A stretch of DNA of 64,000 nucleotides from Nostocales cyanobacterium (GTDB lineage: Bacteria > Cyanobacteriota > Cyanobacteriia > Cyanobacteriales > Nostocaceae). The position numbers and the translations under genes are program-made. Position 1 is the first letter of the stretch; each line of letters starts with the position of its first letter. Location: positions 1 through 64,000 of the forward strand of contig RDXV01000005.1 in the NCBI GenBank assembly GCA_004292695.1, given 5' to 3'. Under the pieces are notes generated by a model. It made no database searches. It saw only the letters and a list, made by a program, of their open reading frames with translations, and had not been told where the DNA came from. This document shows positions 44,872-50,220 of this stretch, piece after piece.

Positions 44872-47541
44872 CTATACAGCACCTTTTTTGATCATTTCAA
44901 ATCCATAAACATAGATATCAGCAACTTTATATCTTTTTTCTCTTTCTCGCCATGCAATCACACCAATTTCATTTAAAAAAGAAGCAAATTCTTCAAATTC
45001 TGCTATGTTTTGTGCTGATTTTTCCCATAGAGTAGATAATTCTTCTTTAGCTAAAAAAGCTGATTGTTGTTTGAGAGAATCAAAAAATCGAGTAAGATGA
45101 GGATATTCTTCTTTAATTTCATCACATCGTTGTTTTGAGGCTTTCTGCAATCCAATTTCTAAAGATTTACTGCGTAATAAACGATCTGTTGGTGTTTGAA
45201 TTGATGATTTACCTTGATAACCTAATTCTTGTTCCTTTGCACCTGCTAGTAAAATGCTTAAACTTCGAGGAAAGGTAGTACCACTAGAATCGGTTAATCT
45301 TGCATGAACCCATCGAGATACATATTTAGCTTTGTCTCCTTTTCTCCGACGACTTCCCCAAAGTAATTCTAAGGCTTTATCAATTATTTCTTCACTAGCT
45401 TGATCTATACTTTCCACAGCAATAGGAGAAAACCTATCTACCAAATTCTTAAAATCTGGTGATTGTATTACTTGACGCAAAGCTAGTCTTAAAAAATCAA
45501 CCCTATTCCATTGTAAAATCAGATCACGTCCAGTAAAATGACTTTTATTATCAAAAATTAACCGATTCCATATATCCTCTCTCAAGAAAATTTTAAATCT
45601 AATTTCTGTTAATCTGTTAGCATCACAAGATTGAACTAACTGGAATAATCCTGATAATGCAGATTGTCTTACTTCTCCCGCTTCAGAAAAATCTTCATCT
45701 AAATCATCATAAAGAAACCAAATTTTTTGACCTTTAGTTTTTAATTCTTCATGAATAATCATATTAATAGCATCTTTCACTATTAAACGTAGTTCAGATG
45801 TAGATAATTCTAACAAAGCATTAGTATTTTCAGCTTGCCATAGTTCTGGATGTAGATTATTAAAAAGTGATTTGATAGGAGTAAATTTTTCGCCTTTCTT
45901 TCCTTTTGGAAAAGTAAATAAATTTTCTTGATAACATCTGAGTAATAAATAAGCTCGCCAAAATGCTTCCCAAGTGCCAATATTTTCCTGTAACCGCTGA
46001 TGAATAATCTGAAAGTCATCACGAGATGGACGACTTTCTTTAAATCTACCATGTGCTGATATAAATATAGTGTTATCTAATCTACCACGAGCTAGTTTTT
46101 TAGCAAAATTTTCATGTTTAAGAAATAGCCAGTATAATGCAGTTTTACCTGTTCCTTTTCTGCCTCTAATTAAACAAGTTGCATTATCCAAAAATTTATC
46201 AAAATCATTTGTACGCTGAAATAGTAAGCTTAAATCCTGTCTTTGATCCGCAGCATTTACTTCAGGAAAGTGTAAGCTTTCAATAATTTTCCAGCGTGTC
46301 TCTGAATTGGTTAAAATATTTGTTCTTTCAATTTCGTCGGTTTCTTCATCAATCAAATTTACAATTTTATTATAGTAATCCAGCAAAGCTTTTACAGGGT
46401 AATTATCAGCTAAGGCAATAGGTTGAAGATAGGGAATTACTAAAGGTTCTAATATTTCTGTTTGTTCATTATCTTCTATTTCAGATTCTTCATCTATGGC
46501 TATTTTTATTCCATTTACAAACGATTGATAAATTTCATTTACTTTATCAAGTTTTGTAACGTCGGGAACAGGAGAGAACACAAAGTTGATGGATAGATTT
46601 TCTAAGGTATTTAGTGAATTTAATAGTAATTTTATACCTTGTTGATTTTGTTCATTAGGGAAAAGAAATATAATTGCTTCGTCAGCAGCTTGAATTAATG
46701 ATAAAGCACCCCATTGATTAATTCCAGTGCGAGAATCAATTAATATAACATCAGGTTTTAACTGTTCATAAATTTCTCGTTTGAAAACAGACCATAAATT
46801 TTCATTACCATCAATAACAGTGGTAGCATGAAGATCATCTACTTTAGAGATATAGTCAAGACTCAAACAACCAGCAGGAACAACAAATAATCTTCCCGTA
46901 GCATTTGGTATTCTAACTTCACCAAATATGTGAGTAATTAAAATACTTGGTTCTACTTCTTCTGGTAAATAGGAACGCTCATAAAAATAGTCAACAATCC
47001 CATATTTTGGCTGTGGGTTGAGGTTAAATGCTGTACTTAAACCCGGTGCTTCTAAATCTAAATCTACAGCTACAACTTTACGTCCTCTTAATGCTAAAAT
47101 CCAAGCCACATGAGTTAATGCTGTAGTGCGTCCTACTCCACCTTTAAAGGAATAAAATGTAACTGTTCTAGGTAAACTAGGTTGACGTTGAGGTAAGGTT
47201 AATTGATTCTGTGGATTTGCTGCTTGGATAGCTAAATCTTGCCAGGTTTGTATTAAATTTATATCAGAAATTACTGTAGGTGAAATATTAAGTGAATCTG
47301 CTTCTTGAGGTGTATATAGAGATATAAAACCAGGCGATAAACTATAATTTTGTGATTTCAGTAAATCAAAAATTTGTTCTTTGCGTTGAGGAATAGATAA
47401 ACCTAAAAAATTATTACTAACAATAGTTAAATTTAATAAACCTGATGTAGAAATATTGATATCAACCCATTCCTGGGAGTTATTATGTACATATTGATTT
47501 CTGATTTCCTGCTTTAGTAATAACTTCCAATTTTCTTGCAT
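44872..47541 (-). CDS. Large double P-loop ATPase: BolA-like N-terminus, KGGVGR ParA-like domain, second AAA/STAND-like ATPase
   Basis: 889 aa. Residues about 37-82 (LNLTIVSNNFLGLSI, PQRKEQIFDLL, GFISLYTPQEA) resemble the core of BolA. A ParA/MinD-like ATPase follows with the variant Walker A FKGGVGRTT (132-140), VVAVDLDLEAPGLS and DVILIDSRTGIN. From about 440 a second P-loop module has RGRKGTGKTALYW (about 460) and Walker B IWFLYDDLDEDF, then about 250 helical residues without a recognised domain. Such chimeric ATPases occur in predicted conflict or signalling systems. GAGGTGAT precedes the ATG. The stop of the HEPN-like gene lies 12 bases upstream, so the two form an operon. Confidence 0.82.
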   Translation of the reverse strand: MQENWKLLLKQEIRNQYVHNNSQEWVDINISTSGLLNLTIVSNNFLGLSIPQRKEQIFDLLKSQNYSLSPGFISLYTPQEADSLNISPTVISDINLIQTWQDLAIQAANPQNQLTLPQRQPSLPRTVTFYSFKGGVGRTTALTHVAWILALRGRKVVAVDLDLEAPGLSTAFNLNPQPKYGIVDYFYERSYLPEEVEPSILITHIFGEVRIPNATGRLFVVPAGCLSLDYISKVDDLHATTVIDGNENLWSVFKREIYEQLKPDVILIDSRTGINQWGALSLIQAADEAIIFLFPNEQNQQGIKLLLNSLNTLENLSINFVFSPVPDVTKLDKVNEIYQSFVNGIKIAIDEESEIEDNEQTEILEPLVIPYLQPIALADNYPVKALLDYYNKIVNLIDEETDEIERTNILTNSETRWKIIESLHFPEVNAADQRQDLSLLFQRTNDFDKFLDNATCLIRGRKGTGKTALYWLFLKHENFAKKLARGRLDNTIFISAHGRFKESRPSRDDFQIIHQRLQENIGTWEAFWRAYLLLRCYQENLFTFPKGKKGEKFTPIKSLFNNLHPELWQAENTNALLELSTSELRLIVKDAINMIIHEELKTKGQKIWFLYDDLDEDFSEAGEVRQSALSGLFQLVQSCDANRLTEIRFKIFLREDIWNRLIFDNKSHFTGRDLILQWNRVDFLRLALRQVIQSPDFKNLVDRFSPIAVESIDQASEEIIDKALELLWGSRRRKGDKAKYVSRWVHARLTDSSGTTFPRSLSILLAGAKEQELGYQGKSSIQTPTDRLLRSKSLEIGLQKASKQRCDEIKEEYPHLTRFFDSLKQQSAFLAKEELSTLWEKSAQNIAEFEEFASFLNEIGVIAWREREKRYKVADIYVYGFEMIKKGAV

Positions 47542-47553
47542 TTTATCACCTCT

Positions 47554-47946
47554 TTACAGTTGAGTAGCTTGCTTGATTAACCAACTCTGAATATTTTTGT
47601 ATGCGTATAACCAGAGTTTATAATTTGATTCATCAGGCTCAACACCAGAATAACGCAAATCTATAAAATGTTGACCCATTGGATTTTCAACTTGATCAAG
47701 CCATTTTCTAGCTTCTGCAAAATTATCAATTCTGTATTTAAGTTTATTATGTTGTTTCAAAATTTCCATGTAACTATGTGTTCTTAATTGTTCAGTGTTA
47801 ACGCCAGAGACAGTATTACAAATAATTGATTTTAATAGACACTCAATGGTAATTCCACCAAAGTGCATAGCTCCTATTTTTCGCAAAGGCTTTAGTGTTT
47901 CAGTATCAGTATGGCGTTCAAAAAAAGCTGCCTGGTAATCTTCCAT
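47554..47946 (-). CDS. HEPN-like small protein paired with the large ATPase
   Basis: 130 aa, all-helical. Helix one contains HFGGITIECLLKSIICNT and a later RTHSYMEILKQHNKL. This is the arrangement in HEPN proteins where a helix with a conserved residue pair is followed by a His-containing turn, and RYSGVEPDESNY resembles the conserved (R/L)RY...D(S/N)Y end of nucleotidyltransferase-type HEPN partners. The classical Arg-x4-6-His RNase motif is not clear, so it may be a structural or regulatory subunit rather than a nuclease. It is the first gene of a two-gene unit with the ATPase, 12 bases apart. Confidence 0.65.
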   Translation of the reverse strand: MEDYQAAFFERHTDTETLKPLRKIGAMHFGGITIECLLKSIICNTVSGVNTEQLRTHSYMEILKQHNKLKYRIDNFAEARKWLDQVENPMGQHFIDLRYSGVEPDESNYKLWLYAYKNIQSWLIKQATQL

Positions 47947-48004: not shown

Positions 48005-48457
48005 TTGTCTGATAAATTGATTTGTTTATTTTTATTCTCCTCCCCCTCTGTATCAGTTGCTTTAAGTCGGGAAACCCGCCCACAGCGCTGTCTCCCCAAC
48101 GCACTGGGTTCTCTGTACCTGTGTAGTGAGATAATAAACATACCTCCATACACAACTGTACACAATTGTAAAAAACTTAACGCCGTAATTCCTGATGAAA
48201 CCTGGCAAGCATTAGAGGAGATTGCCAAAAAAGAACAAAGAACCAAAAGCCAAATGGCCGCCATTTTACTAGGGGAAGCACTGATGCTGAAAATGGATCG
48301 AAACTATGAAGCGCAACAATCACAATTGCAAGAATTTCAAAGACAAACCCAGGAATTCCAAAGACAAAACCAAGAATTTCAACGCACAACAGGCGCTGCT
48401 CTAGAACGTATAGATAGAGTCTTAGACTACCTCCTCAGACAAAGCGGACAGAATTAA
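48005..48457 (+). CDS. Ribbon-helix-helix protein with coiled-coil tail; N-terminus disrupted by repeat
   Basis: The recognisable protein begins near 48163: CKKLNAVIPDETWQALEEIA, then EQRTKSQMAAILLGEA, a CopG/Arc-type ribbon-helix-helix. A heptad repeat LQEFQRQ/TQEFQRQ/NQEFQR (three 21-base DNA units) and a final helix follow, about 95 residues in all. No in-frame ATG exists upstream; the frame reaches a TTG at 48005 only by translating a palindromic repeat. The true start is unclear: the repeat may have replaced it, or the gene may be dead. It is divergent from the HEPN/ATPase pair, so autoregulation of that unit is possible but unproven. Confidence 0.6.
   Translation: MSDKLICLFLFSSPSVSVALSRETRPQRCLPNALGSLYLCSEIINIPPYTTVHNCKKLNAVIPDETWQALEEIAKKEQRTKSQMAAILLGEALMLKMDRNYEAQQSQLQEFQRQTQEFQRQNQEFQRTTGAALERIDRVLDYLLRQSGQN
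48040..48150. repeat. Dispersed palindromic repeat (CGGGAAACCCG / CAGCGCTG type)
   Basis: GC-rich stretch with the palindromes CGGGAAACCCG (about 48068-48078) and CAGCGCTG (about 48083-48090), followed by CCCCAACGCACTGGG. This type of element is scattered through Nostocales genomes. It occupies the position where the start of the ribbon-helix-helix gene would be expected. Confidence 0.7.

Positions 48458-48549: not shown

Positions 48550-50220
<1,671 letters not shown>

Follow-up and report, generated by a model that had tools for sequence, protein, structure and literature searches.

The closest described relatives of the gene pair reported here are found among the phage-defence candidates (PDCs) of PADLOC, which were identified by guilt-by-embedding and are mostly unvalidated (PMC12988326). 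One of them, PDC-M28, specifies a HEPN-like protein (A), a KGGVGR ATPase (B) and a Sll1717-family ATPase (C) by separate genes, and a literature search for PDC-M28 or its family names found no mention of either. Another likeness is to the MAE_18760 dyads, in which a HEPN gene is paired with a ParA/Soj gene and which have been proposed to be toxin‒antitoxin pairs (PMC3710099). The third comparison is with AbiV and the HEPN proteins of the AF0298 type, where the arginine of the Rx4-6H motif is kept, its histidine is lost, a conserved histidine occurs between helices 2 and 3, and helix 2 carries Ex3K. This pattern has been proposed to form an alternative active site (PMC3710099).

The window, a 64,000 nt stretch of a Nostocales cyanobacterium genome, carries an ORF for a 130-aa HEPN-fold protein (nt 47554–47946, minus strand), followed by an ORF for an 889-aa ATPase (nt 44872–47541, minus strand). 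The HEPN gene is the first of the operon and, as stated in the preliminary description, the two ORFs share a strand and lie 12 bp apart. All three PDC-M28 component models of PADLOC match within this one operon (A, E 2.9e-5; B, E 2e-41; C, E 3.3e-28). The components and the gene order are those of PDC-M28, but B and C are joined in one 889-aa ORF, and the match to PDC-M28B begins at residue 119, so that the first 120 or so residues of the fusion, which include a BolA-like domain, are not covered. The combination had been called undescribed and without a named counterpart; the component matches show instead that PADLOC already lists it among its unvalidated candidates for phage defence and, judged by these profiles, the window pair is a fused-subunit variant of candidate PDC-M28. 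The operon (nt 44872–47946) is probably a phage-defence or toxin‒antitoxin-like system. The reading preferred here, with a probability of roughly 0.55, is that of a two-gene anti-phage system of the abortive-infection or toxin‒antitoxin-like kind, a fused variant of PDC-M28 in which the ATPase controls a HEPN effector. New in the present analysis are the BolA-like domain, the alternative active-site pattern of the HEPN protein, the minimal core, the history of fusion and the embedding of relatives in BREX and restriction operons.

Conservation and surroundings of the gene pair

An alignment of the ATPase alone retrieved 80 loci from public genomes of cyanobacteria, Bacillus, Paenibacillus, gammaproteobacteria, Chloroflexota, Spirochaetales, Lachnospiraceae, Verrucomicrobia and others. 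A HEPN-type gene lies directly upstream in 74 of them, the weakest being that of locus L125 (E 0.12), and the HEPN ORF frequently overlaps the start of the ATPase ORF by 4 bp. Chance is far from explaining so regular a pairing, and the check set in the preliminary description, whether the two genes are conserved as neighbours, has a positive outcome, the ATPase being usually accompanied by the HEPN gene. Six loci are without an upstream HEPN gene: three are at contig ends (L080, L087, L104), one lies behind a transposase-like ORF (L114) and two have none (L120, L136). HEPN remnants persist at L087 and L114. Conversely, 25 HEPN places were detected in 24 genomes among the 243 of the order, and all of them adjoin an ATPase match. 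The HEPN gene is shortened or interrupted at L007 (genome G154), L017, L119 and L123; the ATPase frame is broken at L119 and intact at the other three.

The HEPN profile is present in 29 of 292 cyanobacterial genomes, and plasmid copies of the system exist. In several Nostocaceae groEL is found close to the operon, with unrelated genes there in other members of the family (nt 48550–50184 of the window; L162–L164, L235, L240), and the position beside groEL is a variable site. Such a site and the patchy distribution fit a mobile defence gene. Phage records gave no match. Viral contigs contain 19 partial relatives, and two such contigs (L138, L139) carry fragments 56–57% identical to the Sll1717 half of the ATPase.

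Over the ATPase, the window and genome G058 (L004) share a DNA identity of 88–100%, compared with 74–77% over the HEPN gene, and over HEPN the window is 96–99% identical to Sphaerospermopsis kisseleviana. This mosaic of identities suggests that the HEPN gene has been exchanged by recombination. Divergent to the operon is an ORF (nt 48005–48457) specifying a ribbon-helix-helix (RHH) protein with a glutamine-rich coiled-coil tail. The gene noted in the preliminary description is thus real, but a part in the system could not be upheld: a homologue was found at just one other locus, that of S. kisseleviana, and is split in two there, and for this reason the gene was dropped as a regulator and is placed outside the system.

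The HEPN protein

The 130-aa protein is all-helical in a confident AlphaFold2 model (pLDDT 95.4). When the model was compared by VIA-align over residues 1–130, the top 18 rows were all HEPN-type proteins (Z 11.7–6.8), including 1ufb, the HEPN domain of sacsin, AF0298 (2hsb, match 3, Z 10.8) and ST0689. Foldseek returned no E below 0.001, yet HEPN proteins were in its top rows. Z values of this size are also possible for helical bundles, and the fold assignment therefore leans in addition on Pfam HEPN (PF05168), which matches 16 of the 57 family members (best 7.1e-7); MAE_18760 was rejected as the family because Pfam gives PF05168 instead. A sequence search of the PDB with the protein gave no match. 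By its model, the protein has the four-helix HEPN fold, as had been proposed from the sequence. The PADLOC match to PDC-M28A, weak for this protein, is borne out by matches across the family.

In an alignment of 57 divergent HEPN sequences, E35, K39, H57, R98 and Y99 are invariant, and the canonical RNase motif Rx4-6H, expected at the junction of helices 3 and 4 after R98, is present in none (0/57). H57 is located between the helices 23–45 and 67–87 of the AlphaFold2 model. Judged by alignment and helix positions, R98, H57 and E35/K39 fit the residue pattern of the alternative active site suggested for AbiV and AF0298. Shared with these proteins are the retained arginine, the lost histidine of Rx4-6H, the Ex3K of helix 2 and a histidine between this helix and helix 3. 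Given this residue pattern, RNase activity of the HEPN protein is possible. Pfam AbiV matches only one of the 57 members, at E 0.008, and AbiV is not described with such an ATPase in PMC3710099. The MAE_18760 dyad resembles the window pair in that a HEPN gene adjoins a ParA-type ATPase, but its HEPN protein retains Rx4-6H while that of the window does not, and the window ATPase has BolA-like and Sll1717 parts as well.

Since the canonical catalytic histidine is missing, the HEPN protein may be inactive. The same defence system would then contain a HEPN subunit that is catalytically dead and that, as an adaptor or by binding a ligand, loads the ATPase, and the effect would be produced by the ATPase itself, for example through nucleic-acid binding or ATP depletion. 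The lack of Rx4-6H in 57 of 57 sequences speaks for this arrangement, as does the presence, among the closest structural matches, of HEPN domains, that of sacsin among them, for which an RNase role has not been reported, and HEPN domains that have lost the motif are thought to serve as binding domains (PMC3710099). On the other hand, the invariance of E35, K39, H57, R98 and Y99 in the 57 sequences exceeds the needs of a scaffold, and it is the Sll1717 half of the ATPase that is repeatedly lost while HEPN stays. A dead adaptor is considered the less likely of the two, and a HEPN effector under control of the ATPase is preferred.

Domains of the ATPase

The preliminary description correctly recognised two P-loop modules in the ATPase but missed a further domain at the N-terminus (residues about 1–85, nt 47287–47541, minus strand). 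Comparison of the family profile (A8) with the PDB gave 20 matches, nearly all of them to BolA proteins and the best at E 1.3e-4; in Pfam, the BolA model matches 20 of 40 family members (best 6.7e-4). The window domain lies below the Pfam BolA cut-off (18.2 vs 25.7 bits) even though the family profile is clear against the PDB, and for this reason it is labelled only as BolA-like. Its secondary structure follows the order a-b-b-a-b-a. The histidine of the BolA RH motif is absent in alignment A8, where R53 is followed by K, E, L or R, which makes an iron-sulfur role unlikely. BolA similarity was not found at the N-terminus of the split B subunits, and no conflict system with a BolA-like domain was found in the literature searched.

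The next domain (residues 122–406, nt 46324–47178, minus strand) has the MinD/ParA fold, with VIA-align scores up to Z 22.7, reached with MinD over residues 124–400. The NCBIfam model for KGGVGR-motif variant AAA ATPases (NF047398) matches residues 124–310 well above its cut-off (E 3.4e-51, 174.3 bits vs 90), confirming the variant ParA-type domain that had been read from the sequence. The signature lysine, DxD and D-x3-G are shared with MinD/ParA; the window protein differs in the KGGVGRT motif (K133–R138), where the P-loop lysine is replaced by an arginine (R138) that is invariant in the family, and in its fusion to BolA-like and ORC/STAND-like modules. The family alignment shows R138, D160, D162, D269, R271 and G273 to be invariant. 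As a side observation, of the 28 invariant residues R271 (DSRTG) alone is altered in both independently truncated lineages (L086 and Microcystis; R271Q and R271C). Its possible role as a contact to the Sll1717 half was set aside, because the two-gene subtype retains arginine at residue 271 (as DARTG) and because a simple transition in a CGN codon could account for either change by chance, an argument for which the codon of the window (CGC) alone was used.

The second P-loop ATPase module (residues 427–871, nt 44929–46263, minus strand) is matched by the NCBIfam model of the Sll1717 family (NF047389, E 1.2e-38, 133.4 bits vs a cut-off of 75). It carries GRKGTGKT at G460–K466 and DDLDEDF with D612 and D615, and in the family alignment G460, K462, G463, G465, K466, D612 and D615 are invariant. 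Pfam ORC-CDC6-like matches 20 of 46 members (best 2.9e-9), a Cdc6 chain of the PDB matches this half at E 0.003, and weak matches to ORC-CDC6, NACHT, nSTAND3 and AAA_16 were obtained. These comparisons liken the Sll1717 half to AAA proteins of the ORC/CDC6 and STAND types. A C-terminal repeat array was not seen in it, and a winged helix is predicted at the C-terminal end from secondary structure.

A ParA/MinD fold joined to a BolA-like domain, at a chromosomal place that in several Nostocaceae is beside groEL, could also suggest a housekeeping complex with no role in conflict, in which a BolA-ParA protein would serve subcellular positioning or iron-sulfur handling, for example. This is very improbable: the ParA domain has one cysteine only and no CxxC, the BolA RH histidine is absent, the HEPN profile is confined to 29 of the 292 cyanobacterial genomes, the locus has undergone repeated loss and domain swapping, and relatives are contained in operons of defence systems.

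Constant core, defence context and proposed working

The genome of the window carries, on another contig, a second PDC-M28-type locus that is a split trio (L290, G000:C187:3259-6599) of HEPN (143 aa), KGGVGR ATPase (465 aa) and Sll1717 ATPase (499 aa). Four loci (L282, L283, L285, L286) consist of HEPN and a BolA-ParA protein of 412–427 aa only, without the Sll1717 half, and in Microcystis and Calothrix NIES-4105 the ATPase ends just past the ParA domain while HEPN is intact. In a tree of the KGGVGR domain all split forms fall into one clade (100/97), and the two-gene and truncated forms are inside the fused side, a placement that implies three or more independent losses of the Sll1717 half. 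As HEPN was kept through these repeated losses, HEPN and the BolA-ParA protein are the constant core of the system. Our reading of the Microcystis sequences (L092:9568-13096, L095, L178) is that the Sll1717 half has been replaced by a DUF262-like gene and a second small HEPN-like gene. The truncated Microcystis locus lies between ileS-like and RidA-like genes, and another Microcystis strain has a full-length ATPase there.

Some relatives are found within known defence operons. L122 (contig C33 by coordinates) follows brxA and brxC in a BREX cluster whose genes share one strand (BrxC E 2.1e-148, over the cut-off; BrxA E 4.1e-25). L105 (contig C100 by coordinates) is placed between a PglX-type gene (E 9.3e-140) and a BrxHI-type helicase gene (E 4.4e-203), with overlaps of a few bases throughout, and L130 is between HsdS (E 8.4e-39) and HsdR (E 0) in a type I restriction operon. 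L136, which is without HEPN, is beside IetS. The three embedded cases were selected from about 30 non-cyanobacterial and plasmid loci without a matched control, and embedding is therefore claimed for these cases and not as a rate. The enrichment in defence genes that had been envisaged did not appear around 20 cyanobacterial copies, where 139 flanking genes gave 25 PADLOC families, compared with 71 for 138 control genes taken from comparable genomes. The conflict or defence role first proposed for the pair nevertheless gains support from the BREX, PglX/BrxHI and type I restriction operons and from the listing of its components in PADLOC.

A selfish or stress-response addiction module, with HEPN as toxin, the ParA-type ATPase as antitoxin and no real anti-phage role, would share much with what is observed, namely a two-gene core with the small protein upstream, 4-bp overlaps, patchy presence and plasmid copies; moreover, HEPN is broken and the ATPase intact in some strains (L007, L123), and the cyanobacterial copies are without enrichment near defence genes. 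A double ATPase of 890 aa would be very large for an antitoxin, however, and embedding in BREX and type I restriction operons points to defence. Such a module is considered improbable.

For the preferred anti-phage system, we infer the acting part, the sensing part and the RNase activity as follows; the preliminary description likewise inferred a sensing ATPase and a HEPN effector or adaptor. The co-expressed HEPN protein would be an RNase of the HEPN-T/AbiV type and act as effector, with E35, H57 and R98 as alternative active site. The BolA-ParA half would bind HEPN and restrain it through the nucleotide switch of the ParA domain, and the Sll1717 half, an ORC/STAND-like ATPase, would add an infection-sensing or amplifying input. 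Strains in which the HEPN gene is intact but half of the ATPase is missing are alive; should HEPN be toxic, restraint by the BolA-ParA half would have to suffice. A broader proposal, offered tentatively, is that a BolA-like domain joined to a Lys-to-Arg ParA switch forms a hitherto undescribed regulator, which restrains and fires AbiV-type HEPN RNases with an alternative active site, and that the second, ORC/STAND-like ATPase is an exchangeable sensor. Such systems would make up a new class of HEPN immunity under ATPase control, present in several phyla.

If the preferred reading is right, a catalogued candidate would become a testable mechanism with a named likely effector and named residues of its active site, and its minimal two-part core would be identified, with natural strains lacking the second ATPase available for study. 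It would also place a domain of the BolA-like type in a conflict system, and allow a direct test of the proposed alternative HEPN active site that is common to AbiV.
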